64,000 bases of DNA. Source: Bradyrhizobium sp. ISRA464 (GTDB lineage: Bacteria; Pseudomonadota; Alphaproteobacteria; Rhizobiales; Xanthobacteraceae). Of the stretch, positions 2,533-27,661 are shown in pieces. A program made the translations under genes and the position numbers. The notes under the pieces are model-generated. The model was not told the origin of the DNA. It saw nothing but the letters and a program-made list of their open reading frames with translations, and made no database searches. The DNA is taken from positions 7,812,001 to 7,876,000 of the forward strand of contig NZ_CP094526.1 of the NCBI RefSeq assembly GCF_029910095.1, given 5' to 3'. Each line of letters opens with the position of its first letter. Within the stretch, counting starts at the first letter, position 1.

Positions 2533-2585
2533 AGATCCGCGCGCCTGCGAATCGGGATCAGCGTCTATGGTGAGAGGATTCCGAC

Positions 2586-3377: not shown

Positions 3378-3462
3378 AACATCCTGACTTGAGCATGATC
3401 TCCGCGCAAACGCCTTGCGTTTGTCGCGAGGAAAACCGCTCCACAATTCTCCGGATCATGCT

Positions 3463-5911: not shown

Positions 5912-6085
5912 ACCTTGGCCTCCACATTGACCCCAGAAGCCAAAAATGAATCAGCACGCTGATTCGTGAAAGAAAAAAAACTTGCAATTCGCAAAGTCGC
6001 CCAGATTACCGGCGCGTTTTGGCTTTTGAGTCACACTTCGCACATGACACAACTGGAAATGGAGCGAGCTAACCGCTTGATTGGC

Positions 6086-6427
6086 TCATCGCGCGCGCTT
6101 TGCGGCGCGTTTGTTGCGCTCGCGCTCGAGCCATTTGCGTTCGATCCAGCCGAGCAATTGCGCGGTCGGCTTCTGCAGGAATGGAACATCCTGCGCGAAC
6201 AAAAGGAGTCCGAGCGGCAGCATCCAGAGCCCGAGCACCGGCAGGAAGCTGAAGATGCCGCCGAGCACCAGCAGTATCGCGAGCGGAACCCGCACGTAGC
6301 GCGACGACGGCTTGCGCAGCCACGCGACGAACCGCGCCGGCCGCGCCGGAAGCTTGGCTTCGAACCAAGCGAAGTGCCGATCGATTTCCCGCTTATAAAA
6401 GTCGCTCACGCCTCTCTCCCGGTCCAT
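6086..6427 (-). CDS. small inner-membrane protein
   Basis: The basic amphipathic N-terminus (YKREIDRHFAWFEAKLP) precedes a hydrophobic hairpin (residues about 48-80, PLAILLVLGGIFSFLPVLG and LWMLPLGLLLFAQDVPFL) and a very basic C-terminus. I chose MDRERGVSDF as the start. Homologues of this layout are often mislabelled in databases as a tryptophan synthase beta-like protein; nothing in the sequence supports enzyme function. It stands alone. Confidence 0.65.
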   Translation of the reverse strand: MDRERGVSDFYKREIDRHFAWFEAKLPARPARFVAWLRKPSSRYVRVPLAILLVLGGIFSFLPVLGLWMLPLGLLLFAQDVPFLQKPTAQLLGWIERKWLERERNKRAAKRAR

Positions 6428-6581
6428 CCCGCGCACGGCGCGATGGAGTCTTCATCCGCACAGAACGCCAAACACGAGAGATGATGCTGCGTGACAACGT
6501 CACAAGGCGTCAGTCTGTCGCGCGCGCGGGTCTTGAAATTGTCGTGACGGCATCCTGGCGCGGCCAGACCGGCAACCGCGT

Positions 6582-6923
6582 CTAGCTCGCGGTGGACTTG
6601 GACTTCTTTACCCTGTGCGGATGCACCGGTTTGCGCTTGGTGACCGGCCGGAGCGCGGGACGCGCAGTCACCCCTCCCGGTTCCGGAGCTGACCGGAAGA
6701 ACACCTTGCAGGGCGGCGACAACAGCTCCCGGTTCCGGATCATGCAGGCCGTGATGCGATCGACATCGGGAATCTCGGAGTTGCAGAGCCGGAACGCATC
6801 GGGCGTGCAGGCCTGCTGCTGCTCGTCGGTATAGGCCTCGCCCCGCGCCGGCAACAACGCGGCCGCGAGTCCCGTCGAGAGCACAAGCGCAAACGAAAAG
6901 CTTCTTGAACGGGCGATTGCCAT
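6582..6923 (-). CDS. secreted Cys-rich protein
   Basis: The start at MAIARSRSFSFALVL gives a clear signal peptide cleaved near ARGEA. The mature part has a short domain with four cysteines: QQACTPDAFRLCNSEIPD, then ITACMIRN, then LLSPPCKVFF. This Cys spacing is typical of a small periplasmic family common in Bradyrhizobium. The last 35 residues are a Lys/His/Pro-rich tail. The frame extends 84 codons upstream, but that part is low in coding character and includes a tandem repeat, so it is excluded. Confidence 0.7.
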   Translation of the reverse strand: MAIARSRSFSFALVLSTGLAAALLPARGEAYTDEQQQACTPDAFRLCNSEIPDVDRITACMIRNRELLSPPCKVFFRSAPEPGGVTARPALRPVTKRKPVHPHRVKKSKSTAS

Positions 6924-7010
6924 GCGTCCCCCCAAGGCGTCGTTTGCGGGAATTGTGGGAGAACAGCTTGAGAAGTGCAAGCAGGTGAGATGACGCGCTG
7001 AAGTCGCAAC

Positions 7011-7064
7011 GAGCTTGGACTTGTGAGCTTGGACCTGTGAGCTTGGGCTTGCGCTTGGACCTGG
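7011..7064. repeat. 14-bp tandem repeat, about four copies
   Basis: The unit gagcttggacYtgt is repeated three times in full, with a fourth shortened copy and few mismatches. It lies upstream of the secreted Cys-rich gene. It may vary in copy number between strains; no regulatory role is evident. Confidence 0.7.
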
Positions 7065-7238
7065 AAGGCTTCGCGGTGTCGCTGTCGCGTGCGGGCCGCT
7101 TCCGTGGGATGGTACAGTCGGATGGGGACTGCCCGCCCCCAGCTTCAGCATTGACAAATATGGCGAATTTTTCACTCGAGACGGCTTCGCACTGAGCCCC
7201 GCACAAGGGATGGCGATCGTGCTGAGATCGCCATCTAG

Positions 7239-12886: not shown

Positions 12887-14155
12887 CTAGAGGCGGCCTG
12901 CATAGCGTCGCCGAGGGCTGGCCTCTTCGTCGAGCCGCTCGGCCCAGCACTTGATCTTAGCATCGACCCGCTGCATGAGGTCGCCCTCGAAGTCGGGCTG
13001 CGCCGTCATGGTGACGCTCACGAAGCCGGGTTGCCCCGGCGGAAGCCGCCACACCTCGTAGCCCGTCACACCATCCTTGGTTCCCTTCGGCGGCAGCGGA
13101 TTCGGACCCCAAAGCTTGGCGGCATCGGGCGCGGTCCGCTTCATCTCATCGAAGTCGATCGTCCATTTGTGGTCACTCACCGTACCAAATTTGGGGACGA
13201 TCTTGGGCAAGAGATAATCGCGCACGATGTTGTCGAGGTCATGTTGCGTGCCAACCGTCACCAAAGCATTTGGCTGAACGATGACCTGCAGGCCCACCGG
13301 CACCACAAGCGGCGTGATCAGCCAGCCCCATCGGTTTTGGAAATCCTCGAGCGCCTCGTCGATCTTCTGCTTGAACGCCTCGGACTCGCCTGTTCGAGAT
13401 GGGAGTTCGCCCAATTGAATGCGGAGACCCGTTTGCCGTATGACCGACGGCCACGGTTCGAGTAGCGGCTGCATGAACGGTCCTTTTGGACGGCCGTAGA
13501 GCCACCCGAGGACCGGGATGGAGACAGCCGAAGTACCGTTCAGGAAGGCGCGTTGAGCGTAGAAGCGCTGCATCTTGATCATCGACTCGTACAGTCGATC
13601 GCCACCTCGGGTCCGATACTGCGCCTCGTTCGTAAGCAGACGCCTGAAGCTGCCGATCCAGTCTTCTTCACGCTCCCGCTCCACCTCGTCTGAGCCGTCG
13701 GCGGCGAGCGCGTGTGTGGCTTCGGCGGCCAACTCGACATCGTCGATCATGTTTGCAAAAGGGCGCGCCACGACGGTTATCGATGGATGTTCCTGGCCGT
13801 GCGCGCAGGACACGGACAGCGCGTGAATTTGCACGTCGTTCTTGTAAAGCCGGGTCTTCTGCCAGTTGTTGTCCTTCGGGCCCTGACAGCCCAGGAGATC
13901 CAAAAGGTTTTTTGCGATCGTGTGCGCGTGCGGAGGCGATTTGTGGGTCGTTGACAGCTGCAGTTGTAGCGCGATGCCGCCGCGAAAGGCGGTGCGATTG
14001 GAGTCCGAGAGCGCTTCTGCGACTTGGCGCTGGAATTCGACCTTGTTTGCCGACGGCATGTTTTTAGAGCCCGGCTCGAGGTCATGAATCACGACGGCGA
14101 ACCTCCGACGACGGCGGACACGGTATCGCGCCAACTTGCCCGCGACCTTTTTCAT
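12887..14155 (-). CDS. protein with two RusA-like segments
   Basis: The N-terminal half has the layout of RusA-family Holliday junction resolvases: a strand AFRGGIALQLQLS, then SPPHAHTIAKNLLDLLG, then YKNDVQIHALSVS. The family normally carries several Asp residues here (DxDN..K...D....D); the first is replaced by His. A second similar block in the C-terminal half (VPVGLQVIVQPN, then QHDLDNIVRDYLLPKI) does carry DLDN. So it may be a fused, partly degenerate pair. The start MKKVAGKLARYRV is tentative. It is 210 bp downstream of the DUF2235 gene on the same strand and may belong to that operon. Confidence 0.45.
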   Translation of the reverse strand: MKKVAGKLARYRVRRRRRFAVVIHDLEPGSKNMPSANKVEFQRQVAEALSDSNRTAFRGGIALQLQLSTTHKSPPHAHTIAKNLLDLLGCQGPKDNNWQKTRLYKNDVQIHALSVSCAHGQEHPSITVVARPFANMIDDVELAAEATHALAADGSDEVEREREEDWIGSFRRLLTNEAQYRTRGGDRLYESMIKMQRFYAQRAFLNGTSAVSIPVLGWLYGRPKGPFMQPLLEPWPSVIRQTGLRIQLGELPSRTGESEAFKQKIDEALEDFQNRWGWLITPLVVPVGLQVIVQPNALVTVGTQHDLDNIVRDYLLPKIVPKFGTVSDHKWTIDFDEMKRTAPDAAKLWGPNPLPPKGTKDGVTGYEVWRLPPGQPGFVSVTMTAQPDFEGDLMQRVDAKIKCWAERLDEEASPRRRYAGRL

Positions 14156-14365
14156 GTATTCGGCTATGTGTTCTTTGCGATCCACGCTGTCGGCCCGTCG
14201 ATGAATGGCTGAACATAGCGGGTTTCGCTGGAAGATGAAGGCAGCACCAGGTTCGCGCGCGCGTGCACGAGGCCGCTGCGGCTCTCGGCGGCGGCGCACC
14301 CTATTCAAGTCCGTTCTGGCCGCTAAGGTGCCTAAACAGGAGCTTTCCGGCAGCGGCTTGAACGG

Positions 14366-15655
14366 CTATGGATCAGGCACAGCTACGCTGGGATCGTCGG
14401 CCCGGACTGAAGTCTGCAACTCGCTTGGATCCACGTTCTTGCGCCGAGCCCATTCCACGAGGTTCTGCGGCCGGTAGGTTGGATCGGCCCGCCATCGTTT
14501 GAAAACATTGGCGTCAATGGTCTCGTTGACGTTGGTGTGGGTGCCGTCGTCGCGCACATCCGGCGCCGCGCCGATGGTTCGATAAAATGGCCGGGGGGAA
14601 ATGATCTGGTAGGCGCCGTACAGGAACTCCCGGTAGGAGTTCTTGATCTTCGCGGTGACGTCGTCGCCGTCCAGATTGACTTCCGACCGGAACGACAGCC
14701 CCTGCGATTCCGCCTTCTTCATCAGCCAGCGCAGAGGAGGCTGCGCGAGCAGATCGGTCTCGTAGCCGCCGCCGACGTTGGCGTGAGCGCCCACGAACCA
14801 CCGCTGTTCGACGCTCGAAAGCGGCCTCGGCTTGGCGGTGCTGCGATGGACGTCCCAGATCGTGGGAGCGAACTTAGCGCGGTGTTCATCGATGGCGAGT
14901 GCATGATAGCCGTTCTGGATGGGCAGACGCAGTCCCGTCTGCAGATAGTCGAACTGCGAACTGCTGATGCCGGTGAAGTCGCCCGCCGCGATACCTATCG
15001 AGCCGACGGTATCCCACACGCCGACCACCTTGACGTTCACAGGCCGCGCGTATTTGAGAAGCCACTTCTCCTGGGCGGATATATTGGCGATGTCGCCGGC
15101 CGCTTGCTTCTCCTTCAGCCTCCAGATCGTCTCCTCGTCGCCCCTTTTGTAGCGATCGAAGAGTTCGTTCACGCCGATCGGCGAACCCTGCTCCAGCAGT
15201 CCGTCGATGGCGATCAGACCCGCCAGCGCTCTGGCGGTGTACGCGCCGCGACTGAAGCCGAAGATGAAGATCTCGTCTCCGTCCCGGTAGTTCTCGATCA
15301 GCCACTCGTAGGCCAGACGGATGTTCTCATCGAGTCCTTGCCCGAAGGTGCCGCCGAGAAAGCCGTTCACGCCGACAGAATAGTAGATCAGTTGAGGCTT
15401 GCCGTCCTTGCCTGTCGGCGCGCACAGAGAGCGCATGCGCCACACGTTCGTGTTGGTATCGACGCTGTTCCATGTACCGTCGAGGAAGACCGCCAGGCGC
15501 TTCTGCTGCTGCTGGTCCGCGCCGGCGACGTTCGACTGGTTGCCGCCCTTCTCTCCCGGACGACCGATGAAGACGCCAATAGCGATCATCGCCGCGATCA
15601 CGGCCAGAAGAATGATGGAATGCGCGATCTGCCAGACCCAGTGCCAAACTTTCAT
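14366..15655 (-). CDS. membrane-anchored DUF2235 alpha/beta hydrolase
   Basis: Residues 8-30 form one transmembrane helix (WQIAHSIILLAVIAAMIAIG). The rest is a DUF2235 hydrolase, the fold shared with T6SS Tle1-type phospholipases: KRLAVFLDGTWNSVDTNTNV, the nucleophile elbow GFSRGAYTARALAGL, the Asp segment VVGVWDTVGSIG, and the His segment RWFVGAHANVGGGY. All catalytic positions appear present. The start overlaps the E2-like stop by 4 bp (ATGA), so translation is coupled. Next to cyclases, the simplest idea is a membrane-lipid-attacking effector held at the membrane. A metabolic lipase is the alternative. Confidence 0.8.
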   Translation of the reverse strand: MKVWHWVWQIAHSIILLAVIAAMIAIGVFIGRPGEKGGNQSNVAGADQQQQKRLAVFLDGTWNSVDTNTNVWRMRSLCAPTGKDGKPQLIYYSVGVNGFLGGTFGQGLDENIRLAYEWLIENYRDGDEIFIFGFSRGAYTARALAGLIAIDGLLEQGSPIGVNELFDRYKRGDEETIWRLKEKQAAGDIANISAQEKWLLKYARPVNVKVVGVWDTVGSIGIAAGDFTGISSSQFDYLQTGLRLPIQNGYHALAIDEHRAKFAPTIWDVHRSTAKPRPLSSVEQRWFVGAHANVGGGYETDLLAQPPLRWLMKKAESQGLSFRSEVNLDGDDVTAKIKNSYREFLYGAYQIISPRPFYRTIGAAPDVRDDGTHTNVNETIDANVFKRWRADPTYRPQNLVEWARRKNVDPSELQTSVRADDPSVAVPDP

Positions 15656-16446
15656 GCCTCACCTCCTATTGCGCCTTCGTGCGTTTCCGCGGCGTGCAAT
15701 TTTCTTCCGTCGTCCGTCGTCGCGTCTCCGGTCCGCAGCGGGCATTCGCGCATGGTGCCGCAGCAAGAAACGCGTCCACGCAGCGTCCGCCAAAAATCGT
15801 CTACCAGGACGCGCCGGCGATGCTCGAAAATGATCGGACAGCCGAGTCCGTTGTCATGACAATCCCTCCGGAGCAGAGGGCGTCCCCGGCGGTCTGTGCG
15901 TCCGCAGATGCAGGCGCTTCGCCCGTTGCGCAGCATCCCCGTCTTCGCGTTGATCCTGCGTACGCCGAAGGCGATGACACCGGTGTCGAATGCGACTGCT
16001 TCGCGATAGGCGGCTCGCAGCCCCAGCTGATCGGCCGCGTTCTCGGCCGCGAGCTCTATCTCGCCGGCTTCGCCATGCGAGAGTTGCGCCTCGCTCGGCC
16101 AGAAGCCCGTCTCCTCCGCGGTCTCTTGCCACAGTGCGAAAGCGTGCAGCTTCGTCCACCATGCTGGCGCCGTCTCGTCCGTGATGCCCTCGCCGGCGCG
16201 CAGGCCGATGCAGAAGGATCCGCCCCGGTTGATGTGCCGCTCGGGGCAGCACGCCGGCAGCGTGCTTCCGACCGATCGTTCGGACACGATGATCTCGCCG
16301 CCGAGAGAGACGGCCCTGAGTTGGAAAACTCGGGTCAAGGCCTTGCTGCTCCGCACCGCGACCACATCGATCTCCGCCTCACGGGCGTGGACAGACCGGA
16401 ACTCCGCCCAGGTCGGACAGCATCGTGCGAGCGCGTCGAGCGACAT
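15652..16446 (-). CDS. E2-like (ubiquitin-conjugating fold) protein with Cys-rich tail
   Basis: Residues 50-145 resemble prokaryotic E2-fold domains: EIIVSERS, LPACCPERHINRGG, then SFCIGLRAG with a candidate catalytic Cys at 79, W-W near 96-97, and LSHGEAGEIELAAENAADQL. The C-terminal 90 residues carry seven cysteines (C179, C181, C196, C203, C228, C229, C235), matching what databases call E2-associated Cys-rich regions and probably binding metal. No E1-like ThiF or JAB protease is nearby. It sits between the cyclase and hydrolase genes, with 9 bp before it and a 4-bp overlap after it. The E2 call is family-pattern recognition. Confidence 0.6.
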   Translation of the reverse strand: MSLDALARCCPTWAEFRSVHAREAEIDVVAVRSSKALTRVFQLRAVSLGGEIIVSERSVGSTLPACCPERHINRGGSFCIGLRAGEGITDETAPAWWTKLHAFALWQETAEETGFWPSEAQLSHGEAGEIELAAENAADQLGLRAAYREAVAFDTGVIAFGVRRINAKTGMLRNGRSACICGRTDRRGRPLLRRDCHDNGLGCPIIFEHRRRVLVDDFWRTLRGRVSCCGTMRECPLRTGDATTDDGRKLHAAETHEGAIGGEA

Positions 16447-16455
16447 GATCGTCGA

Positions 16456-17937
16456 TCATCCCCGCGACGGCTTCGGCGACGCCGCGTGGGACCGTGCTGC
16501 CGGTTCGCTGCGCAAGATCTGGACCGCCGGGGCCTGCGGCGTCATCAGCAGGTCCGAGGCCGAATCGAAGGACATCAGCCGCCCGGACGAGAAGTGCTTG
16601 CGGACAGTGGGATCTGCGATGGCCGCTGCGGCCGCACCGAGGCGGATACCGCCATGTTCGATGGCTTGCTGGGTGCGTTCGGCGTTGATCGTGGCGCGGC
16701 TGGCGGCGCAACGCACGCTGTCATCGCCACGATGGCCCAATCGCGTCATCGGGGTCGGCCCGTATTCGATGCCGACGGCGAGGTCGATTGCGGCATCAGG
16801 TTGGACGGCTTCCAGGCAGAGGTCGAAAGACGACCTCATAGCCGAAGCGCACAGCGCGGCCTCACGCACGCTTGCGGCAGCATCGTCGGCGCGTTCGCCT
16901 TCGGCAACGCAGCCGTGGATGCAATCACCGATGAAGCGCACGCGCTTGCCGCCGAAATCGTCCTTGAGGACAGAGTTGAGCTCCTCGCGGATGACGTGGA
17001 CGATCTTGACCGCATCACGGATCGCTTCCGAGCCGCCTTGGATCGACTGGTCGACGAAATTGGTGAACCCGTCGATGTCCGCGAAGATCGAGGCCATCCC
17101 CATGCGGATCGAGTTCGCAGGAGAGAGCTCGCTGAACTTCACGGAGGACAGCGGCAACGTGGGGCGCTTGAAGCGGAACATCGGCTCGGAAGAGTCGGAG
17201 GCGATGGCCGAAGCGGTCCGGTCGAGGCTGTCGAAAGCATACTTCCTTGCCGCGGTCGCGATGTAGGCTTCGTCCAGCGTCAAGCCGCCCGCATGCTTGC
17301 GCATCGCCGCGGCGGCGACACGCTTCTGGGCCGTTTCGGTCAGGAAGATGCCCTCCTCGGCTCCGGATGCGACGAGCTTCGCCGCGTGGTTCGCGGGCCG
17401 CCCCAGAAACAGGGTGTCCTTCTCGTGCGCGCCGCGTCCCGTGGTCATGGCGAGGCACTTGCCGTGATCGATGCCGAAGCGGATGCGCGAGGGGAAGCCG
17501 TGAGCCTCGCCGACCTTCTGTGCGGCTTCCGTGAGCTTGCGGGCAAGCGCCACGGCTCGCTCGATCTGCGCGGCGGGGTCGCCTATCGGCGAGGCGACAA
17601 CGGCATGAAGGCGGGCGCCGTGATAATCGATCCGGTCGCCGTCGTCGCCGTCGACGAGGGAATCCCACACCCGATAGTGCATGTTGAGGAAGCGCAGCAG
17701 GCGCCGGTGCGCCGCCTCCGTCTCCTGGCCGTGCTCCGTCACCAGGTCCTCGAAGTCGAGAAGCTGGCCGTAGAGATGGGCGCCTTCGACGACGAAGGCT
17801 TCCCTGAGCGGCATGCGGCTGAGCAGTCCGCGTTTGGCCAGAACCTTGCTGTCGAGCGCGATATGGCGATCGACGTCGGGCACCGTCTTCAGATGTTCGC
17901 GGATCCTCGATTTCGCGCGGTCTTGATTCCAGGACAT
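16456..17937 (-). CDS. tandem class III nucleotide cyclase
   Basis: Two cyclase homology domains. The C-terminal one (about 275-470) has SIFADIDGFTNFVD with both metal Asp positions (287 and the 338 of RFIGDC), and a VRCAASRATINAERTQ helix in place of the usual N-x-x-x-R. The N-terminal one (about 55-245) keeps FGIDHGKCLAM and LFLGRPANHAAKLVA but lacks a clear second metal motif, so it may be regulatory, or the two may form one active centre. The purine-selecting Lys before GDG is Arg in the C-terminal domain. The nucleotide specificity is open, pyrimidine included. It follows the cNMP-cyclase gene after 10 bp. Confidence 0.75.
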   Translation of the reverse strand: MSWNQDRAKSRIREHLKTVPDVDRHIALDSKVLAKRGLLSRMPLREAFVVEGAHLYGQLLDFEDLVTEHGQETEAAHRRLLRFLNMHYRVWDSLVDGDDGDRIDYHGARLHAVVASPIGDPAAQIERAVALARKLTEAAQKVGEAHGFPSRIRFGIDHGKCLAMTTGRGAHEKDTLFLGRPANHAAKLVASGAEEGIFLTETAQKRVAAAAMRKHAGGLTLDEAYIATAARKYAFDSLDRTASAIASDSSEPMFRFKRPTLPLSSVKFSELSPANSIRMGMASIFADIDGFTNFVDQSIQGGSEAIRDAVKIVHVIREELNSVLKDDFGGKRVRFIGDCIHGCVAEGERADDAAASVREAALCASAMRSSFDLCLEAVQPDAAIDLAVGIEYGPTPMTRLGHRGDDSVRCAASRATINAERTQQAIEHGGIRLGAAAAAIADPTVRKHFSSGRLMSFDSASDLLMTPQAPAVQILRSEPAARSHAASPKPSRG

Positions 17938-17947
17938 TACCTTCTCC

Positions 17948-19060
17948 TCAGATGGAATAGACGTCGAGTTCGACGCCGTGCTTCACTTCCACCTTCGTCG
18001 GGCCCCGGAAGGTGTCGGGGTCTGCACCCGACCCGACCATCAGGTCGCGCAGGGTCGGGCTGATTCTGATCTCGCCGAGTTCGGGAGATTTCGCTTGTTC
18101 GTACCTGGCCGCCATGTTGACGGCGGCTCCGAGCAGCGTGACGGCGATCCTGTTCTCGGCGCCAAAGTCGCCGAACGCCACGTCACCGGCGTGCAGGCCG
18201 ATGCGCAGGCCGAGCGGCAAGCCGTGCTTCTCGAAGTAGGCCCGGCATTCCGCGGCTACCTTCAGCACGCAGGCGAGCACAGCGGTCGGCACGCACCTCT
18301 CGCGATCGCCGGAATCGACGAACCAGTAGGCCATCGCACCGTCGCCCATAAGCTTGTCGATCTGGCCGCCGCCATCGCGCACCGCGTTGATCTGGATGGC
18401 GGCGAGTTCGCTGAGATGCGCGGCGACTTCGCTGGAGGATTTGGAGGCCGACCAGACGCTGAATCCGGCGATGTCACTGAAGAAGATGACCGCGCGGCGG
18501 CTCTGGATCGCAGGTCGGTCGCCGCGCGTCGCTATTTTGACGAGCCCGAGGGCGTCTCCATCAGAAAACCTGCGGAGGAGTCGTTCGTGCTGGGAGGCCA
18601 GGCTGCGCAACTCGGAGCGCATGTCGGTGGCCTGTTCGAGCTTGTGGTTGATGACGCCCGCCAGCGTCAGCGTCCAGATGACCTTCTCTTGATCTTGCAA
18701 TCGCTCCTGGAAGGATGCGTCGATGCACAGCAGTTTGACCGGTCCGACAGCCCGCACATCGGCCGTGCGGGTGCCGTCTTTGCCGGACAGGACGTGGACG
18801 AGCCCCTGCTCCCCGAAGAGTTCGCCGTCGGCGCGAAAGACGACGATCTGGTCGTCGGCGCGGACCTCCACCTGACCGGCGATGATCAGCCAGCATCCCT
18901 GGACGCGCTCTCCGCGTCTGCAGATCGATTCGCCCGGGAGAGCGTCTTGCACGGTCCCCAGTCCCGTCCGCTCGAGCGCTTTCTGGATCGCGACCGGATC
19001 CGGGCAGAACTGCCGGAGAAAAACTTCGAGCTTGTCCTCGACATCGGAGGGAAAGGGCAT
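17948..19060 (-). CDS. cyclic-nucleotide-binding domain fused to class III cyclase
   Basis: Residues 30-135 form a CRP-type cNMP-binding barrel (PGESICRRGERVQGCWLIIAG, VEVRADDQIVVFRADGELFGEQ). Residues 188-370 are a complete class III cyclase: VIFFSDIAGFS with D196, IDKLMGDGAMA with K236 and D240, and AAVNMAARYEQ with N315 and R319. All metal, base-selecting and transition-state positions are present, so it should make a cyclic nucleotide, plausibly cAMP. A sensor and a cyclase in one chain suggests feedback or cross-talk with the tandem cyclase downstream. It is first in the operon, and the divergent intergenic region holds two repeated sites. Confidence 0.85.
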   Translation of the reverse strand: MPFPSDVEDKLEVFLRQFCPDPVAIQKALERTGLGTVQDALPGESICRRGERVQGCWLIIAGQVEVRADDQIVVFRADGELFGEQGLVHVLSGKDGTRTADVRAVGPVKLLCIDASFQERLQDQEKVIWTLTLAGVINHKLEQATDMRSELRSLASQHERLLRRFSDGDALGLVKIATRGDRPAIQSRRAVIFFSDIAGFSVWSASKSSSEVAAHLSELAAIQINAVRDGGGQIDKLMGDGAMAYWFVDSGDRERCVPTAVLACVLKVAAECRAYFEKHGLPLGLRIGLHAGDVAFGDFGAENRIAVTLLGAAVNMAARYEQAKSPELGEIRISPTLRDLMVGSGADPDTFRGPTKVEVKHGVELDVYSI

Positions 19061-19127
19061 ATCTCGTGTTCCACCTGGACGTGTATCAAAGGTTAAAGGG
19101 CAACCATTTTGTTTTGCGGCATATTAA

Positions 19128-19148
19128 GTATGTCTATTCCGAACATAC
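19128..19148. promoter_or_regulatory. operator-like site 1
   Basis: GTATGT and ACATAC are perfect inverted repeats with 9 bp between them. The core TGTnnCTAyTCCGAACA recurs 50 bp downstream. It lies between the divergent cyclase operon and the XRE gene, so it is a likely site for the XRE repressor. Confidence 0.5.
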
Positions 19149-19180
19149 AAAGGCCTTTGCCGCCGGTCAAGGACGGATTA

Positions 19181-19197
19181 TGTTGCTACTCCGAACA
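19181..19197. promoter_or_regulatory. operator-like site 2
   Basis: TGTTGCTACTCCGAACA matches site 1 at nearly all core positions and has TGTT/AACA ends. It lies 23 bp before the chosen GTG of the XRE gene, consistent with autoregulation. Confidence 0.5.
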
Positions 19198-19219
19198 GAA
19201 CGCGAAGGGGAAGCAGCGC

Positions 19220-19537
19220 GTGGCAGAGACCATCCGGGATCGAATTAAGGCACTGAGAAAGAAGGCGAAATTGACGCTAGATCAGGCGGCAGAACAGGCA
19301 GGATTGAGTAAGTCCTACCTGTGGGAGCTCGAAAATCGAGACCTCCCGCGCCCATCGGCGGAGAAGCTCGCCGGGCTGGCGCGCGCCTTCAACGTGACGG
19401 TCGATTACCTTCTCGGCGGCGAAGCTGTCGAGAACCTGGGGTCAGCCGAAGACAAGGCGTTCTTCCGCGAATACCAGTCCATGTCGCCGGAGGCCAAGGC
19501 TCGTCTGAGGCGGTTGGCGAAAGCTCTGGACGATTGA
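19220..19537 (+). CDS. XRE-family HTH regulator
   Basis: Residues 4-70 are a classic XRE helix-turn-helix (IRDRIKALRKKAKLTLDQAA, then AGLSKSYLWELENRDLPRPS, ending VTVDYLLGG). The C-terminal 35 residues are a charged helical tail, a plausible cleavage or dimerisation segment. I chose the GTG after GAAGGGGAAG; upstream alternative starts add low-quality residues and would cover site 2. One base separates its stop from the ImmA/IrrE gene, the usual layout of repressor-protease pairs like DdrO/IrrE. It probably represses the divergent cyclase operon and itself. Confidence 0.85.
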   Translation: MAETIRDRIKALRKKAKLTLDQAAEQAGLSKSYLWELENRDLPRPSAEKLAGLARAFNVTVDYLLGGEAVENLGSAEDKAFFREYQSMSPEAKARLRRLAKALDD

Positions 19538-19538
19538 C

Positions 19539-20417
19539 ATGAATTTCGAGGGGTGGGGGCTTCAGAGGTGGGCCAACCACTTCAACCAGATGCTGAACCT
19601 GGCGAACCCACCCGACCGTTACCGCTTCGACGTCGGCCGGCTCGCCATGGAAACGACCGCGCAGATGTTTCCGAGCGACCCGATCACGAAGGTCGAAGAA
19701 GAGGACCTCGATGGCTTTGCCGGTGCCCTCGTCCCAGCCGAATCCAGGACTCGCTGGGGCATCGCTTACGGCAAGGGACAGTCGCCTGGAAGGCGCAGGT
19801 TCACCATCGCCCATGAATTCGGGCACTTCCTGCTCCACAGGAAGAAATATCCGAACGGCATCCATTCGAGCGAAGCCGATGTGGACGGCCGGACGAAAAT
19901 CGAAGTCGAACGCGAGGCGAACGAGTTCGCGGCGTGGCTGCTGATGCCGCTGGACGATTTCCGACAGCAGATCGCGCCGAGGGACAAGCCCGACTTCGAT
20001 GCCATCGGCAACTGCGCGGATCGCTACGAGGTCTCTTTGGTTGCAGCGGTTCTGAGATGGCTCAGATACACCGATAGACGGGCCGTCTTCGTCACCTCCG
20101 TCGACGGATACGTCAAGTGGGCGTGGTCCAGCGACGCAGCTTTCAAGAGCGGCGTCTTCATCCGCACCAGCCGGGGCCCCGTCGAGCTTCCGGCCGCGTC
20201 CGCCGCGGGGCAGGAGCAGTTCACGCCCGAAGTCCGGAGCGGCGTCGATCACGCAGCCGGGGTGTGGTTCAACGAGCGCGTCAGGGAGCATTCGTTCAGG
20301 AGCGAGAAGTACGACACCGTCTATAGCCTGCTGCATCTTGGCGATGCCGAACCCAAGTCCTGGAGCGAAGGAAAACCGCTCGAGGACACGTACGAACGTT
20401 TCGTGCGCCGCGGGTGA
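19539..20417 (+). CDS. ImmA/IrrE-family metalloprotease
   Basis: A zinc-protease motif lies near residue 90: FTIAHEFGHFLLHRK (HExxH), followed about 35 residues later by VEREANEFAAWLLMP with the third ligand Glu. The family cleaves partner XRE repressors after a stress signal, as in ImmR/ImmA and DdrO/IrrE. The C-terminal 130 residues (KWAWSSDAAFKSGVFI) form a beta-rich domain that could sense the signal. It is coupled to the XRE gene upstream. The expected outcome is derepression of the cyclase operon when the protease is activated. Confidence 0.85.
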   Translation: MNFEGWGLQRWANHFNQMLNLANPPDRYRFDVGRLAMETTAQMFPSDPITKVEEEDLDGFAGALVPAESRTRWGIAYGKGQSPGRRRFTIAHEFGHFLLHRKKYPNGIHSSEADVDGRTKIEVEREANEFAAWLLMPLDDFRQQIAPRDKPDFDAIGNCADRYEVSLVAAVLRWLRYTDRRAVFVTSVDGYVKWAWSSDAAFKSGVFIRTSRGPVELPAASAAGQEQFTPEVRSGVDHAAGVWFNERVREHSFRSEKYDTVYSLLHLGDAEPKSWSEGKPLEDTYERFVRRG

Positions 20418-20567: not shown

Positions 20568-21296
20568 ATGTGCAACCTTTACTCAATGACAAAGAACGTT
20601 GATGCGATCCGTCGGCTGTTTGGGGCGCTCAACAGCCGCGTGGGCAACCTGCCTAGCATGCCGGGAATCTTTCCGGACTATCCGGCGCCGATCGTGCGCA
20701 ACGCGCCCGACGGGCCAGAAATCGTCACGGCGCGCTGGGGCATGCCGTCGTCGCAGCGGGCGCTGATGGATGCCACGAAGAAGCGGGCGCAGAAGCTGGA
20801 GGCCAAGGGGCAGGCCGTCGATTTCAAGGAGCTGCTGCGCATGGAGCCGGACAGCGGCACGACCAACATCCGAAACGTCAACAGTGCACATTGGAAACGG
20901 TGGCTTGCACCGGACAACCGGTGCCTGGTGCCGTTTACGTCGTTTTCCGAGTACGACACGATCGACGGCAAGAAGGTTCCGGTGTGGTTTGCACAGGACG
21001 AGAGCCGCCCGCTGCTGGCGTTTGCCGGCATCTGGACGAACTGGACCAGCGTGCGCAAGGTCAAGGAAGGCGAAGTGACCTCCGATGTGTTTGGCTTTCT
21101 GACTAGCGATCCCAACGCCGAGGTGAAGCGCGTCCACCCGAAGGCAATGCCGGTTATCCTGACGACTACGGAGGAACGCGACGTGTGGATGCGCGCCCCT
21201 TGGGACAAGGCCAAAGCGCTGCAGCGGCCCCTGCCCGACGACGCGCTCGAGATCGTCGCCAGGGGCGAGAAGGAAGACCCATTCCCGACCGCCTAG
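20568..21296 (+). CDS. SRAP-domain protein (SOS response-associated peptidase family)
   Basis: It starts MCNLYS, so Cys2 is exposed after Met removal as in YedK/HMCES, which form a covalent link with abasic sites in single-stranded DNA. The family motifs follow in order: [39 protein letters not shown] with the conserved Glu, and [12 protein letters not shown] with the conserved His. The 242-residue length is normal. It precedes a small gene and dinB in the same direction, consistent with a DNA-damage tolerance cluster. No clear LexA box was found upstream. Confidence 0.9.
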
Positions 21297-21422
21297 CCTT
21301 GTACACAGGAGCGCGGAACAGGTGGAAAAGCGGCAGACCCCGCAATCCGGAATCCCTGCCCTGTGCTAACCGCCGGGAACAGAGGTGAGACGGGCGGATT
21401 CGTTCGGGCAGGAAAGATCTCG

Positions 21423-21695
21423 ATGCTGATGACGAAAGAACGGCGGCCCGCGATCCGGACGCTGCGCGGCTGGGCCATCTCGGCGCTCAACGAAGCCGGC
21501 GCCATCCGTGAATGTGAGGAGCACGGCTGGATGCGGGATCGCGCGGATCCGCACGCACGCGACCGCGCGTTCGATATCGCCCGCCGGGATCCGACGACTG
21601 GCGTTTCGCCGGAAGCTGCGGCCGTCGCGATCGCCGAGGTGTTGGATTCGATCGGCGACACCTGCCCTGAATGCCCGCCGGCGGATTGCGGCTGA
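21423..21695 (+). CDS. hypothetical protein of the dinB neighbourhood
   Basis: A 90-residue protein with segments RTLRGWAISALNEAGAIREC, HGWMRDRADPHARDRAFDIA, then SIGDTCPECPPADCG with a C-terminal Cys cluster. I recognise the pattern as one common in Bradyrhizobium, without an assigned function. An earlier in-frame ATG would add 20 poorly protein-like residues. It lies between the SRAP and dinB genes on the same strand. Confidence 0.6.
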   Translation: MLMTKERRPAIRTLRGWAISALNEAGAIRECEEHGWMRDRADPHARDRAFDIARRDPTTGVSPEAAAVAIAEVLDSIGDTCPECPPADCG

Positions 21696-21737
21696 CTTCG
21701 CCGCGACTCGACTTGCGGATCCCTGTACAATCCGCGC

Positions 21738-22841
21738 ATGATCCCTTCCGATCAGGAACACGACGTCTCAACGTCGCCTCACCGCAAGATCATCCATATC
21801 GACATGGACGCCTTCTACGCGTCGGTCGAGCAGCGCGACAATCCGGACCTGCGCGGCAAGCCAGTCGCGGTGGGCGGTTCGGCCGAGCGCGGAGTCGTCG
21901 CCGCCGCGAGCTATGAAGCCCGCAAATTCGGCGTCCGCTCCGCGATGCCGTCGGTCACCGCCAAGCGACAGTGCCCCGACCTGATCTTCGTCAAGCCGCG
22001 CTTCGAAATCTACAAAGCGATCAGCCGGCAGATTCGTGAAATCTTCGCCGAGCACACGCCGATCATCGAGCCCCTCTCGCTCGACGAAGCCTACCTCGAC
22101 GTCACCGAGAATCTGCAAGGCATTCCACTGGCCAGAGACGTCGCGCTGCGGATCCGCGAGAAGATCAAGGCTGAGACTGGCCTGAACGCCTCGGCGGGCA
22201 TCTCCTACAACAAATTCCTGGCGAAGCTTGCCTCCGATCACCGAAAGCCCAACGGTCAGTACGTCATCTCGCCGGAGATGGGACCGGCTTTCGTCGAGAC
22301 GCTGCCGGTCGGAAAGTTTCACGGCATCGGGCCGGCGACCGCGGCAAAGTTCAACGCCTTCGGGATCCGGACCGGCCTCGACATCCGCAACCAATCCCTC
22401 GCCTTTTTGCAGGAGAATTTTGGCAAATCCGGCACCTACTATTACTGGATCTCACGCGGCATCGATGAGCGTCCTGTTCGAGCCAACCGCATCCGTAAAT
22501 CCGTCGGCGCCGAGAACACGTTCTCCACTGACCTCACTGAGTTCGACTCCATGGCGGCAGAGCTCGAACCGCTGATCGACAAGGTCTGGCGGCACTGCGA
22601 GTCGGCGAACACTCGGGCGCGAACGGTAACGCTCAAAGTGAAGTTCGCCGACTTCGAGATCATTACGCGCAGCCGATCCGTTTCTTCGGTCGTCGCGAGT
22701 CGCGATGACCTCGCACACCTGGCGATCGGTCTACTGGAAGACAATATGCCTCTTCCGAAGGCGGTGCGTCTCTTGGGTGTGTCGTTGTCGTCCCTGCTAG
22801 ACGAGAACGACACGGAGCCACAACTGGATTTCGGGATTTGA
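21738..22841 (+). CDS. dinB: DNA polymerase IV (Y family)
   Basis: The Y-family palm motifs are intact: IIHIDMDAFYASVEQ with the catalytic Asp, and EPLSLDEAYLDVT with the Asp-Glu pair. The thumb HhH (VGKFHGIGPATAAKFNAFGI) and the little finger follow. The C-terminus ends QLDFGI, which fits a beta-clamp-binding motif. The 367-residue length is typical. It performs error-prone translesion synthesis. The genus often carries several dinB copies; this one lies with SRAP and exonuclease genes. Confidence 0.95.
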   Translation: MIPSDQEHDVSTSPHRKIIHIDMDAFYASVEQRDNPDLRGKPVAVGGSAERGVVAAASYEARKFGVRSAMPSVTAKRQCPDLIFVKPRFEIYKAISRQIREIFAEHTPIIEPLSLDEAYLDVTENLQGIPLARDVALRIREKIKAETGLNASAGISYNKFLAKLASDHRKPNGQYVISPEMGPAFVETLPVGKFHGIGPATAAKFNAFGIRTGLDIRNQSLAFLQENFGKSGTYYYWISRGIDERPVRANRIRKSVGAENTFSTDLTEFDSMAAELEPLIDKVWRHCESANTRARTVTLKVKFADFEIITRSRSVSSVVASRDDLAHLAIGLLEDNMPLPKAVRLLGVSLSSLLDENDTEPQLDFGI

Positions 22842-22911
22842 ACCGGACTAGACTTGTAGCTCCAGCAGACTCAATGCGCGGATAACGTGTCCAGAGGATC
22901 GCAACACTCCA

Positions 22912-23808
22912 ATGCTTGAACCCGACCTGACTCTGGCCGCCATGGCCGAGGCATTGGCCAAATCTACCGACTATCGCGTCCTCCGACGCCTGGTTCCTCG
23001 GACGATGTTCAGCTCATCCATCGGCCAAAGTACAAAAACCGGCATCCTGATCGACACCGAGACTACAGGTCTCGATGTGCAAAAAGACGAGGTTATCGAA
23101 CTGGGGATGGTAAAGTTCGACTATCTGGCCGACGGCCGCATCGCCGGCGTACGGGATGTCCTCTCTTCGTTCAACGAGCCGACAGTGTCGATCTCACAGG
23201 AAGTCACTGCGCTCACCGGCATCACCGACGAGATGGTCGCCGGACATCGGATCGATGCGGACGCGGTTTCTGCGTTCGCCGAGGATGCGGTAATCGTCAT
23301 CGCCCACAATGCCGGCTTCGACCGCAAATTCGCGGAGCGCTACTGGCCCATCTTCGAACGGAAAGCGTGGGGATGTTCGGCCACGGAAGTCGAGTGGCGC
23401 AAGCACGGCTTCGAAGGCTCTCGCTTGGGCTACCTCCTCAACGGAACCGGCTTCTTCCACCACGCCCATAGGGCGGTCGACGATTGCCACGCCCTTCTTG
23501 AGATCCTCGCGTTCGAGTTGCCGACGACCGGAACGCCAGCGCTCGCCGTTCTGCTGGAACGGGCCCGCAAAAAGACGATACGCCTATGGGCAGAGCAGTC
23601 GCCCTTCGATCTCAAGGACGCGCTCAAGCGGCGCGGCTACCGCTGGAGCGACGGGAGCGATGGCAGGCCGAGGTCATGGTACGTCGACGTCGACGAAAGC
23701 ATGCTGGACGACGAAATCGCATTCCTCACGACCGAGATCTATTTTTGTGACGTCGAGCCACGTCTTCAGGCCTTGACCGCCTTTGATCGGTTTTCGATCA
23801 GGGCCTAG
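22912..23808 (+). CDS. DEDDh 3'-5' exonuclease (DnaQ-like)
   Basis: Exo I is GILIDTETTGLD, Exo II lies in VIVIAHNAGFDRKFAE, and Exo III is FHHAHRAVDDCHALLE with the H-x4-D form, so all four acidic residues and the His are present. A C-terminal extension (KRRGYRWSDGSDGRPRSWYV) forms a small extra domain found in some DnaQ-like proteins of islands. It acts on single-stranded or mismatched 3' ends. The SNF2-like helicase that follows could be its partner. Confidence 0.85.
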   Translation: MLEPDLTLAAMAEALAKSTDYRVLRRLVPRTMFSSSIGQSTKTGILIDTETTGLDVQKDEVIELGMVKFDYLADGRIAGVRDVLSSFNEPTVSISQEVTALTGITDEMVAGHRIDADAVSAFAEDAVIVIAHNAGFDRKFAERYWPIFERKAWGCSATEVEWRKHGFEGSRLGYLLNGTGFFHHAHRAVDDCHALLEILAFELPTTGTPALAVLLERARKKTIRLWAEQSPFDLKDALKRRGYRWSDGSDGRPRSWYVDVDESMLDDEIAFLTTEIYFCDVEPRLQALTAFDRFSIRA

Positions 23809-23968
23809 GCGAGCCCAGAGTCGGACGGCGCTGCCCTCAACGTTCACGGCACTTTCTCGACGCGCTCGCAGCCGCCGCCAGCCGAGCTACCCGCAAAGGT
23901 TGCCGACGGGCGCCAAACCGGGCATGCTACGGCAATTAGAACAACCAAATGCCCGGGCTTTGCGAGGA

Positions 23969-26900
23969 ATGGCGGCATCGTCATCCGAATTTCAAACGAA
24001 AATTTTGCGTCGCAGCGTCCTTCCGGACGAATACAGACTGTATCGAGCGGCGCTCGAATGGGACCTGACCGACCCCATCGTCATCGAGACACGCAAGGAC
24101 CTCAAATCCGAAAAGCGGTGGCAAGACCACCTACAACCCTATCACCATCAGGTCACTAACCTCATCACCTTTTGCCGCCGCCTCCCGGTGACGCTGCTCG
24201 CCGACGACGTAGGCCTGGGCAAAACTATTAGCGCCGGACTGATTGCCAGCGAACTTATCGCGCGAGCGAGGGTCTCCAAGATCCTTATCGTGTGTCCGAA
24301 ACTGCTTGGACCGCAATGGCAGGCGGAATTACAGGCAAAATTCGATGTCCCTGCTCAAATCGCCACCGGCAGAGAGCTGATAGCCGCCGAACCGGACGAT
24401 GTTGGCGCGGTGATAACGACCTATGCTTCAGCACGCCTGCATCTCGAGAAGATCCCTCAAGATCGTTTCCAAATGCTGGTGCTCGACGAGGCGCACAAGC
24501 TGCGCAACCTCTACGGCGTCGATCCACCTCCGCAGGTCGCTTTGCGCTTCAAGGAGGCTCTTGAAAAGAGGCGCTTTCGCTACGTTCTGATGCTCACCGC
24601 CACTCCGATCCAGAACCGGCTTTGGGATCTCTACTCGCTCGTCGACCTCCTTACGGTAGCCCGTGGTCACCAAAATCCGTTCGGAAGCGAGGGGATGTTC
24701 GCGCGCAAGTTCATCGCCGACAAGCGCGATACGGCTCGTCAGCTCAAGGCCGAAGCTCGCGAAGAGTTTCGCTCGATCGTGTACGGTTACATGTCACGGG
24801 TGCGGCGCGGCGACGCGAAGCTGTACTTCCCGGATCGCGTCGTCCAGCTTCACCGGGTCGAACCGACTCTCGCTGAGCTCGAGCTTATCCGTGTCATCAG
24901 CAAACCGATTCAAAAGCTCAATCGGCTCGCCCAAATCGGAATCCTGCAGGCGCTCACCAGCAGTCCACATGCGCTGATGGCCCACCTCACCAACATGGCA
25001 CGAAACGGGACCGTACCCCGGGAGCTTGCTGCTGCGGTCTGCAGCATCGTCGCTGGCATGAGCACCAGCGCGAAACTGAACGGACTCGGCACGCTGATTG
25101 ATCAATTGATGCGTCAAAACCCTGAGCGATGGCGCATGGTGGTGTTCACTGGCCGGCTCGAGACGCAGACGACGATTCAGGCTTTCCTGGAGGCACGGGG
25201 CCTCAAGGTCGGAATCATCAACGGCAATTCAGGACAACGTAACCAAGACACCATCGCCCGCTTCTGGAAAAATCCGCCCGCCTGCCATGTGATCGTGTCG
25301 ACCGAAGCGGGCTCAGAGGGCGTGAACTTGCAGATCGCCAACGTGCTGGTGAACTTCGATCTTCCGTGGAACCCGATGATCGTTGAGCAGCGCATCGGCC
25401 GAATTCAGAGGCTCGCGTCCGAACATGCGAGCGTCAGCATCCTCAACATCACGCTAAAGGGAACTTTCGAAGAGTATATCGTCGGTCGCTTAATGGAAAA
25501 GCTGCAGATGGCAGCGCATGCCATAGGCGACATCGAGTCGCTTCTTGAGGCGTCTGGCGTCGACGACGACGATGGGGAGGATTTCGAGGACAGGATCCTT
25601 CGGCTGGTGCTGGCGGCGCTCGCCGGTAAGGACTTTGAAAAGGCCACGAAGCAGGCAGAGCAAAGCATACTCGATGCGAAGGAAAAGCTGGAAGCGGAAG
25701 AGGCTAACATCAACGACATGCTCGGCAGCATGGATGGTGCGGAATATGTCGGACCGCGGGCTCCCAAGCTTCCTCCGATCGTGAGGTCGATGGAGCTACG
25801 GGAGTTCGCACTCGCCGGCCTCAAGAGCCTTGGAGCTACGGTGACGCCTAAAGAAGGCGGCCTTTATCTACTGGAAGAGGATACTGGCCGCGAATGGATT
25901 TGTTTCGAAGAAGGCGCCCGCAATGGCCGCGCCACCTTGTACGCACCCGGATCAGCCGCGTTTTCGAGATTGGTAAGCCGAATGATCGCCACTGGGGTTC
26001 ATCAGGTGGAGGATATGGATGAGGACCCGGCCGGCCTAGCAAATGAAATCTCGCGTCGTTGGGTCGACAGCTTCGGCGCATCGCCCATCACGACAAAGGT
26101 GGAAGGGGTGCGCCGCTGCTTCGAAGGCAAAGCGCTTATCCGGGTGCGCGCGACTGTGGCGCACGACAGCTACGAACGCCTCGTCGAAGTGGAATGTCGG
26201 CCCGGCGAACACCGAGCACACGCCGTCCGGTCCGGTCTCTATAAATTGGCCGATACGATCGAGAACGCCCAACATCTCGGAATTGATACCGAACGGCTGG
26301 CCGATGCAGCCGGACGTGATCAAGGCATCGGCGAGTTCTGCCGTTTCTATGTCGAGCGGCGCGTTCAGGAGCTGGCGGCCGCTGGCGATGATGCTCGCAA
26401 ACGCAAGAAGATGGAGGACGACTTCACTCCGCGGCTTGAATTGACGGTCGTCGCGTTGGAAGGCGGCATTCACCGCGAAGTCACCTCAGAGGTGCAGTAT
26501 AAGTTCGACAAAGGCCCGCATTATGAGAGCCGTTTGACCGTGATACCGCGGACGGGCGATTGCCTTTCCGCTCCGGAACTGGGCCGATGCGACAGCAGCG
26601 GCACTCTCGCGCCAAAGGAATGCTTGGGCCATTGCGTCATGACCGGCGTGGATGTCTTGCGACACCTGCTCGTCACCTCAGAAATCAGCGGCCGGATGGC
26701 CCTCCCGGACCACGCGCTGCGCTGCAGCCTAAGCGGCAAACTCATCCTGACGGACGAAGCGGAACTTTCCGCGGTTACAGGAAATCCTGTCGCGAGCTCG
26801 CTTCTCAAGACCTGCGTTTTGACAGGAAAACGGGCAGAACCAGAGCACTTCGGTCGGTGCGAGTTCACTGGCATCGAGCTACTGAAGAGCGAATTGGCCG

Positions 26901-27661
26901 TCAGCGACATCTCGGGCAAACCCTATCGTCGCGACCAGAAATCGAAGTCAGTAGTATCTGATCAAACGGGCCACAAGGACGAGTTTCTCCTTTGTCATGA
27001 GACACGGCAACCGATAACAAAACAAGAGGCCGAACGGTGCGAAATCACCGGGAAGTTCGTTCGGCCCGGCGTGCTCGAGCGCTGCAGCACCACCGGGAAA
27101 GCCGTCTTACCGTCTGAGCTGGAGCGCTGCGCGGTTGCGGATTCTCGCGTGCTGAAAAGGTTACTTGTTATCAGCAGCGTTTCTGGCGCTCGCATCCAGC
27201 ATCAACTAGCGATCCGTTCGGCTGGCGGCAAATACTGTGCTCCGGCCGAAGCTAGACCCTGCACGTGGAGCGGGCGCAGATCGCACCCGGATGATCTTAG
27301 GGTCTGCAGCCTTACCGGAATTTCCTTCCACTTCGACTTCGCCGCCCCCGGCGGCAGTCCCTATCTTCAGCCGCTGGGTGATTTGCTGCATGGGGTGCGC
27401 CACACGACGGACGCATCAGATCGCTGGAGCGAGATCGCCCTAAAGGCATCCAACGCCTTGCGCGGAGGCCGCTGCCGTGTGGAATCCGCCTTCACTTCGC
27501 CGGATAGGCGGCATCTAGCCCTATGCACTGAGGTTCGCACGCTGTTGGGCTTGCGAGTTCAACAGGCGGGTTTGCTGTACTCGATTGAGGAAGGATCTTT
27601 CGTCGGCCGCTTGGCCTTAGGCAAGCGCACGCCGAAGGGATGGATCCAGTCGGCTGTCTAG
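23969..27661 (+). CDS. SNF2/RapA-like helicase with C-terminal Cys/Gly repeat array
   Basis: A two-lobe SF2 ATPase: LLADDVGLGKTISAGLIASE (Walker A), LVLDEAHKLRNL (DEAH), MLTATPIQNRLWDLYSL (motif III), STEAGSEGVNLQIANVL and EQRIGRIQRLA (motifs V and VI). It resembles RapA-type bacterial SNF2 translocases. The middle is acidic and helical. The last third holds about 16 copies of a roughly 16-residue unit, [C/S]-x-x-[S/T]-G-x(4-6)-L (CVMTGVDVL, CSLSGKLIL, CVLTGKRAE), then an alpha/beta tail. The start is uncertain: ATGs at 23924 and 23969 are both possible. It is convergent with a RecB-like nuclease. Confidence 0.85.
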   Translation: MAASSSEFQTKILRRSVLPDEYRLYRAALEWDLTDPIVIETRKDLKSEKRWQDHLQPYHHQVTNLITFCRRLPVTLLADDVGLGKTISAGLIASELIARARVSKILIVCPKLLGPQWQAELQAKFDVPAQIATGRELIAAEPDDVGAVITTYASARLHLEKIPQDRFQMLVLDEAHKLRNLYGVDPPPQVALRFKEALEKRRFRYVLMLTATPIQNRLWDLYSLVDLLTVARGHQNPFGSEGMFARKFIADKRDTARQLKAEAREEFRSIVYGYMSRVRRGDAKLYFPDRVVQLHRVEPTLAELELIRVISKPIQKLNRLAQIGILQALTSSPHALMAHLTNMARNGTVPRELAAAVCSIVAGMSTSAKLNGLGTLIDQLMRQNPERWRMVVFTGRLETQTTIQAFLEARGLKVGIINGNSGQRNQDTIARFWKNPPACHVIVSTEAGSEGVNLQIANVLVNFDLPWNPMIVEQRIGRIQRLASEHASVSILNITLKGTFEEYIVGRLMEKLQMAAHAIGDIESLLEASGVDDDDGEDFEDRILRLVLAALAGKDFEKATKQAEQSILDAKEKLEAEEANINDMLGSMDGAEYVGPRAPKLPPIVRSMELREFALAGLKSLGATVTPKEGGLYLLEEDTGREWICFEEGARNGRATLYAPGSAAFSRLVSRMIATGVHQVEDMDEDPAGLANEISRRWVDSFGASPITTKVEGVRRCFEGKALIRVRATVAHDSYERLVEVECRPGEHRAHAVRSGLYKLADTIENAQHLGIDTERLADAAGRDQGIGEFCRFYVERRVQELAAAGDDARKRKKMEDDFTPRLELTVVALEGGIHREVTSEVQYKFDKGPHYESRLTVIPRTGDCLSAPELGRCDSSGTLAPKECLGHCVMTGVDVLRHLLVTSEISGRMALPDHALRCSLSGKLILTDEAELSAVTGNPVASSLLKTCVLTGKRAEPEHFGRCEFTGIELLKSELAVSDISGKPYRRDQKSKSVVSDQTGHKDEFLLCHETRQPITKQEAERCEITGKFVRPGVLERCSTTGKAVLPSELERCAVADSRVLKRLLVISSVSGARIQHQLAIRSAGGKYCAPAEARPCTWSGRRSHPDDLRVCSLTGISFHFDFAAPGGSPYLQPLGDLLHGVRHTTDASDRWSEIALKASNALRGGRCRVESAFTSPDRRHLALCTEVRTLLGLRVQQAGLLYSIEEGSFVGRLALGKRTPKGWIQSAV

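Follow-up and report, generated by a model that had tools for sequence, protein, structure and literature searches.

A Pycsar-type cyclase locus with an E2 protein, a Tle1-like hydrolase gene and a CapH-CapP-like gene pair in Bradyrhizobium

Results

Gene content of the locus

The analyzed DNA, hereafter the window, is a 64 kb stretch within the 8.46 Mb single-contig genome of Bradyrhizobium sp. ISRA464, and it holds a candidate defence operon of four minus-strand genes (g1 to g4) next to a divergent pair of regulatory genes. The product of g1 (17948-19060, 370 amino acids) combines a cyclic nucleotide-binding domain (CNBD, PF00027) with one class III cyclase domain (PF00211), while g2 (16456-17937, 493 amino acids) encodes a tandem class III cyclase of the clade A PycC type with a tail motif, RSH, near its C-terminus. 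They are followed by g3 (15652-16446, 264 amino acids), coding for a protein with E2-ntca and E2-Crich domains, and by g4 (14366-15655, 429 amino acids), coding for a Tle1-like (DUF2235) hydrolase. The coordinates of the open reading frames (ORFs) confirmed the compact operon that an earlier note on this DNA had described, with 10 and 9 bp between g1, g2 and g3 and a 4-bp overlap of g3 and g4, as well as the divergent plus-strand XRE-ImmA pair (ORFs 19109-19537 and 19539-20417). The same note had proposed a RusA-like gene as a possible fifth member. This ORF (12887-14308) lies at least 57 bp beyond g4, had no Pfam match at E ≤ 1 and no homolog in the scanned neighbour loci (blastp, E ≤ 1e-4 or 1e-5), and we rejected it as a member; homologs of it were found in three plasmid records elsewhere.

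Both cyclases matched PycC models of the pyrimidine cyclase system for antiphage resistance (Pycsar) in PADLOC over their full length: g1 matched PDLC00734 (E = 7e-146, residues 1-370) and g2 matched PDLC00762 (E = 5e-162), with two Guanylate_cyc stretches recognized in g2 by Pfam. The g1 protein had 14 matches in its own genome, the 13 others all below 60 bits. For g2 we also obtained a strong match to PDB entry 6yii (E = 1.5e-73), which is PaPycC, a clade A cyclase (PMC11224242). Relatives of g2 adjoin genes annotated as PycTIR, PycTM and ‘uridylate cyclase PycC’, and the g2 product is probably a cyclic pyrimidine, cyclic uridine monophosphate (cUMP). Searches with Pfam and PADLOC found among the locus genes no CD-NTase cyclase as in the type II cyclic oligonucleotide-based antiphage signalling system (CBASS), the cyclases being of class III, and among g1 to g4 no PycTIR or PycTM receptor-effector except for the CNBD that g1 shares with them. 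PycTIR or PycTM genes are present in many loci of the relatives.

The E2 assignment of g3 was borne out by Pfam (E2-ntca PF20298, E = 3.9e-17, 63 bits at a cut-off of 27.5; E2-Crich PF20272, E = 6e-13) and by Cys79, which occupies the catalytic position after R-H-I and is invariant in 7 of 7 g3 homologs; the PADLOC E2 model PDLC00875 matched as well. Fold comparison supported it more weakly: Foldseek gave no match at E ≤ 0.001, with most of the top rows being E2s. In a search of PDB sequences, g3 matched up to E = 1 only chains unrelated to it, among them designed repeat proteins. The genome contains one E2-ntca gene only. As the earlier note had claimed, no partner E1 is encoded at the locus, all three ThiF matches in the genome being remote from the operon, and we regard g3 as a candidate E1-less ligase.

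The g4 protein matched T6SS_Tle1-like_cat (PF09994, E = 1e-68), which we take to be the former DUF2235 model. It carries a GFSRG nucleophile motif and an N-terminal hydrophobic stretch, and S135, D215 and H291 are invariant in 10 of 10 sequences; no match was found in PADLOC at E ≤ 0.1 or among PDB sequences at 0.01. We regard g4 as a candidate membrane-anchored Tle1-like hydrolase that may act as an exchangeable effector.

The regulatory pair and candidate operators

An XRE repressor gene and an M78 protease gene side by side next to an immune operon are the arrangement by which CapH-CapP pairs are recognized, and Pfam and PADLOC showed it here. The CapH-like repressor (plus strand, HTH_3) matched capH at E = 4.9e-28 and the CapP-like M78 (ImmA/IrrE) protease (19539-20417, plus strand, PF06114) matched capP at E = 2.1e-67. 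The CapH reading frame is open from 19109; however, because the ortholog on plasmid p192_1 of Bradyrhizobium sp. 192 (p192) is annotated at 318 bp, the GTG at 19220 is the more likely start, giving a gene at 19220-19537. In described systems single-stranded DNA (ssDNA) activates CapP, which cleaves CapH, and immune operons next to such pairs, Pycsar among them, are under their control (PMC13373217). In the region between CapH and g1 we observed two copies of a GTTCGGARTAG-like element, neither assigned to a strand. The core columns of copy 1 (19181-19197) show no variation across the 6 aligned loci, and copy 2 (19128-19148), which overlaps the −10 of a promoter-like site, is present in the five rows reaching that far. 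A search for inverted repeats gave short arms only. We consider both copies candidate CapH operators, a predicted function.

The g1-g2-g3 core recurs in other genomes

Plasmid sequences were searched at cut-offs of E ≤ 1e-20 for g1 and g2 and E ≤ 1e-5 for g3, and relatives were found in 28 records for g2, 4 for g1 and 22 for g3. The closest relative lies on p192, where capP-capH stands divergent from g1-g2-g3-g4 with about 85-93% protein identity. A genome scan with g1 covered the best 80 of 113 relatives. Loci L025-L032 were examined in detail, L033 and L034 showed neither g2 nor g3, and L035-L104, which match mainly the cyclase domain, were left out of the locus counts; L026/L170 and L027/L169 were treated as the same contigs because their lengths are equal. 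In a search of the genus with g2, 22 of 242 genomes were positive (own genome included), and loci were fetched from 20 of the 21 others (G557 was left out).

Counting from the examined layouts, 15 of the 18 distinct loci with g1 have g1, g2 and g3 in immediate succession: the window, p192, L025, L026, L027, L028, L030, L031, L032, L167, L168 and L171-L174, with L027 and L168 being near-identical. In two further loci (L014 and L023) g1-g2 is followed by an E2-E1 fusion, and in one (L022, same record as L029) g1 stands beside another cyclase without an E2. Since the order recurs to this extent, the grouping of g1, g2 and g3 is more than chance. Both CapH and CapP accompany 10 of the 15 (window, p192, L026, L027, L031, L168 and L171-L174); L167 has the M78 protein only, neither was seen in L025, L028 and L030, and in L032 the contig ends there. 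The family is rare in the phylum and class samples: with the own genome counted, g2 was found in 4 of the 398 genomes sampled from the phylum and in 2 of the 385 from the class, and E2-ntca reached E ≤ 0.001 in 3 of 385 from the class, two of them over the cut-off.

Two side observations concern the surroundings of the CapH-CapP pair. In L171, L172 and L173 one such pair is flanked by two clade A Pycsar modules, with g1-g2-E2 on one side and a g2-like cyclase with E1-E2 and JAB genes on the other (in L172 also PycTIR), and in L026 a JetD (Wadjet) gene (5978-7183) lies beside CapP.

The tail of the g2-type cyclase tracks the type of ligase

To describe the C-termini of the g2-type cyclases we collapsed near-copies, reducing 54 loci to 44 g2 sequences. 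The counts exclude g2 ORFs of at most 400 amino acids (L013 is truncated) and L023, whose cyclase tail is the same as that of L014; a ‘g1’ tag near L018 was read as a cross-hit of the hidden Markov model on split genes. The motif was first noted as R-[ASP]-[HYF] and, after more loci had been fetched, counted in the wider form [RQK][ASP][HYF]. Within the last 25 residues this pattern occurs in 31 of 33 g2 from loci with an E2 only; the three windows N-terminal to this stretch contained it in 0, 4 and 0 of the 33. At E1-E2 loci, in contrast, g2 ends in GF[AS] in 9 of 10 cases and in KPGGFA in 4 of 10, and 4 of 10 match the loose pattern at another place of the tail; the GF[AS] end was observed in 0 of 33 E2-only g2. 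Of the 12 distinct loci of the E2 type that were added once the motif was known, 10 have it, counting L200, where the script missed an annotated E2 and where the g2 tail lacks the motif. KPGGFA is the tail of a B. cereus CBASS cyclase that was found ligated to lysines of PspA, and strong conservation of the tail is described for type II CBASS cyclases (PMC11153139). The motif of E2-only loci is followed by 2-9 further residues, the last of which is variable, so ligation through the C-terminal carboxyl is not implied there.

We then built a tree of g2 without the last 60 residues, in which some branches are long and the placements unsure. E2-only loci with an R-x-H tail fall on both sides of the midpoint split, the E1-E2 loci with GF tails form one clade (98/87), and the E1-E2 locus L014 represents a second ligase switch and carries neither tail. 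Because the type of tail tracks the type of ligase, the tail of the g2-type cyclase is probably a substrate or a docking site of the ligase.

The fourth gene is exchangeable

The gene behind g3 varies. Three of the 15 g1-g2-g3 loci have an intact DUF2235 gene behind the E2: in the window and p192 the Tle1-like g4 comes directly after g3, and in L167 a DUF1488-type protein stands first and a different Tle1-like gene second. L026, L027 and L168 have the DUF1488-type protein alone (392-403 amino acids in all four loci), L025 retains a 42-amino acid Tle1-like relic, and L028, L030, L031 and L171-L174 have no conserved gene after g3. At p155 a truncated cyclase is followed by an E2, a 478-amino acid protein and a Tle1-like protein of 27% identity, and L186 has the order g2-E2-PycTIR-Tle1-like. 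DUF2235 genes of different lineages thus recur behind this E2. Within the genus, a same-strand PF09994 gene within 2.5 kb behind the E2 was seen three times (window, L167 and L186) in 21 loci, the window and the 20 fetched ones, whereas 0.0095 would be expected from the 176 PF09994 matches in 60 genomes of the genus, a tally in which some genes appear twice, by a calculation that ignores shared ancestry and the clustering of defence islands.

On our reading the fourth slot would be an exchangeable effector module. A live rival takes g4 for cargo, a mobile gene that stands by itself, has no relation to the cyclases and came to lie behind the E2; the system would then consist of g1-g2-g3 and its regulator. 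Copies of g4 at 92-93% identity occur on five Bradyrhizobium plasmid records besides p192, and in the three fetched (L105, L106 and L110) no g1-g3 match was found; the blastn homology is confined to 14360-15665 of the window on the minus strand, which covers g4 with 10 bp ahead of its start and 6 bp after its stop, and in two of the three the copy is split by insertions. Further, PF09994 genes were present in 59 of 60 genomes of the genus, and 12 of the 15 g1-g2-g3 loci lack an intact g4 behind the E2. Against cargo stand the 4-bp overlap of g3 and g4, a tight junction that is kept in p192, and the varied PF09994 lineages behind the E2 (about 50% identity in L167, 27% in L013, L186, and the relic in L025). 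Weighing both sides, we give the cargo explanation a substantial chance, roughly one in three. The earlier note had presented four genes as a set and named scattered cyclases and hydrolases as a sign of a chance cluster, a sign that we saw in part. The g1-g2-g3 core of that set held; solitary DUF2235 copies and the few loci with the gene intact behind the E2 weigh against a fixed set of four.

g1, a candidate relay cyclase

In its CNBD, g1 retains the ribose and phosphate contacts, with G83, E84 and R98 kept in 19 of 19 g1 and Pycsar receptor sequences. PycTIR reads uracil with N143, which lies 46 residues after the phosphate-binding R97 at the place of CRP S128 (PMC11224242). Of nine Pycsar receptors compared (eight of the TIR and one of the TM type), eight have Asn at +46 and one has it at +47, whereas in the ten g1 sequences +46 is Ala or Ser in all and +47 is Thr or Ser in nine, a comparison whose register is not certain as the aligner put a gap near this position. 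The cyclase domain keeps the catalytic Asp pair, Asn and Arg, and K236 and T308 are conserved in 10 of 10 and aligned with CyaC; this K/T pair we take to be a mark of adenylyl specificity. The fold comparison rows listed for g1 cover its cyclase half, with the CNBD outside. Because the uracil-reading Asn of PycTIR is absent from its place and the active site has residues of the adenylyl cyclase type, we suggest that g1 could be a relay cyclase gated by a cyclic nucleotide that is not recognized in the manner of cUMP, and that it may produce a purine nucleotide. No other step of our reading is as bold or as uncertain.

Alternatively, g1 might be a plain amplifier that binds the cUMP of g2 and makes more of it, with g4 answering cUMP directly or via g3. 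That PADLOC files g1 as a PycC and that the ribose and phosphate contacts are retained would suit such a role; the missing Asn in 10 of 10 g1 and the alignment of K236/T308 with adenylyl cyclases speak against it, and we find it rather doubtful.

Discussion

Taken together, our findings suggest, with a probability of about 0.6, that the locus is an inducible abortive-infection (bacterial suicide) defence against viruses, of the Pycsar type with an E2 and induced by DNA damage. As the CapH-CapP systems described elsewhere behave, and by homology here, ssDNA from infection or repair would activate CapP, which would cut CapH and thereby de-repress the operon. On infection the clade A cyclase g2 would, judging by its family, make a cyclic pyrimidine, probably cUMP. 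The pairing of tail and ligase suggests that g3 would act on or dock at the g2 tail and prime or localize the cyclase, as Cap2 does for CBASS cyclases, yet without an E1. In the weakest step g1, with its adenylyl-type active site and a ligand not read like cUMP, might relay or amplify the signal. Finally, an exchangeable effector would stop the cell. This part would be played here by the Tle1-like hydrolase, anchored in the membrane, and in relatives by PycTIR, PycTM or a DUF1488-type protein.

A bolder version is that the locus represents a subtype of Pycsar with an E2 only and with two messengers. The E2 would modify the pyrimidine cyclase by way of a short tail, in parallel to CBASS, a cyclic-nucleotide-gated cyclase would relay the first messenger by making a second one, a purine, and the cascade would end in a membrane lipase, with sister E1-E2 loci using the CBASS peptide KPGGFA on another cyclase family; we offer this whole picture tentatively and consider it unlikely to hold in every part. 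A stress or regulatory system other than anti-phage defence appears improbable. In its favour, a killer gene is not apparent in some of the sister loci and, according to PMC13373217, Bub operons under the same switches were not shown to protect. Against it argue the carriage on plasmids, the defence neighbours, the homologs beside PycTIR and PycTM, and the patchy distribution, with hits in 22 of 242 genomes of the genus and 2 of 385 of the class when the own genome is counted.

What was upheld of the earlier note is thus a cyclase system of the defence type that combines an E2 with a Tle1-like hydrolase and has an XRE-ImmA switch, whereas the claim that it is undescribed was not upheld: PADLOC models for PycC, E2, capH and capP already match, these cyclases and this E2 are already filed under defence there, and CapH with CapP has been published (PMC13373217). 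Pycsar, clade A cyclases, CapH-CapP and bacterial E2 proteins are all known (PMC11224242, PMC13373217, PMC11153139, PMC12948488). What goes beyond the known picture is the tail-ligase pairing, a g1 without the uracil-reading Asn, and the DUF2235 lineages recurring behind the E2. In a limited literature search we met no description of a Pycsar tail-ligase pairing, a non-uracil relay cyclase or a Tle1-like effector, which is not a claim of their absence from print; a search joining Pycsar with DUF2235 found nothing, and a term search of PMC10097602 gave no mention of Pycsar, GFA or adenylate cyclase.

Compared with Pycsar systems with a clade A PycC, g2 is a full-length PycC that resembles 6yii, but in the place of PycTIR or PycTM the locus has the CNBD-cyclase fusion, an E2 and the Tle1-like hydrolase. 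With type II CBASS (Cap2/Cap3) it shares a ligase gene adjoining the cyclase gene and a conserved cyclase tail, and the sister Pycsar loci with E1-E2 and JAB genes have the KPGGFA tail too; its cyclase, however, belongs to another family, its E2 comes without E1 or JAB, and its tail motif is not at the extreme end. The regulatory pair, known here from sequence, matches the PADLOC CapH-CapP models and stands divergent from the immune operon like described pairs, with no difference seen. In common with Tle1-like hydrolases g4 has PF09994, GFSRG and the conserved Asp and His, yet it differs by its N-terminal hydrophobic stretch and its position in a cyclase operon. If our reading is true, a relay cyclase and a Tle1-like hydrolase would join the Pycsar parts list. 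It makes E2-type ligase action without an E1 in bacterial immunity testable, as well as the question whether one ligation tail was adopted by two different cyclase families. With the DUF2235 gene as an interchangeable module, operon membership here would be no fixed set.

Neighbouring genes

Directly beyond CapP (20568-23808, plus strand) we found an SRAP peptidase gene, a probable DNA polymerase IV gene (recognized by eye) and a DEDDh exonuclease gene. They are followed by an SNF2-type helicase gene (23783-27661, plus strand) with BrxHI/DrmD-like PADLOC matches of the bacteriophage exclusion (BREX) and defence island system associated with restriction-modification (DISARM) type, and by an adjoining minus-strand gene (27686-29155) for an RNase_H_2 and PD-(D/E)XK protein with weak Cas4 matches. 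A pPIWI-RE-type three-gene island with PprPIWI, PprDinG and PprRE matches lies at 45226-58999 (minus strand); the PprPIWI match covers residues 49-956 of a 3095-amino acid ORF, which is far longer than the 718-position model. Near related cyclase loci we noticed a patatin-like gene in L180 (14120-15052) and a PycTM gene in L182 (6170-6727). In L200, from a Methylobacterium plasmid, the region 301-3854 directly upstream of the E2-type Pycsar locus encodes a metallophosphoesterase and a protein of the caspase family together with two proteins that have TIR domains.

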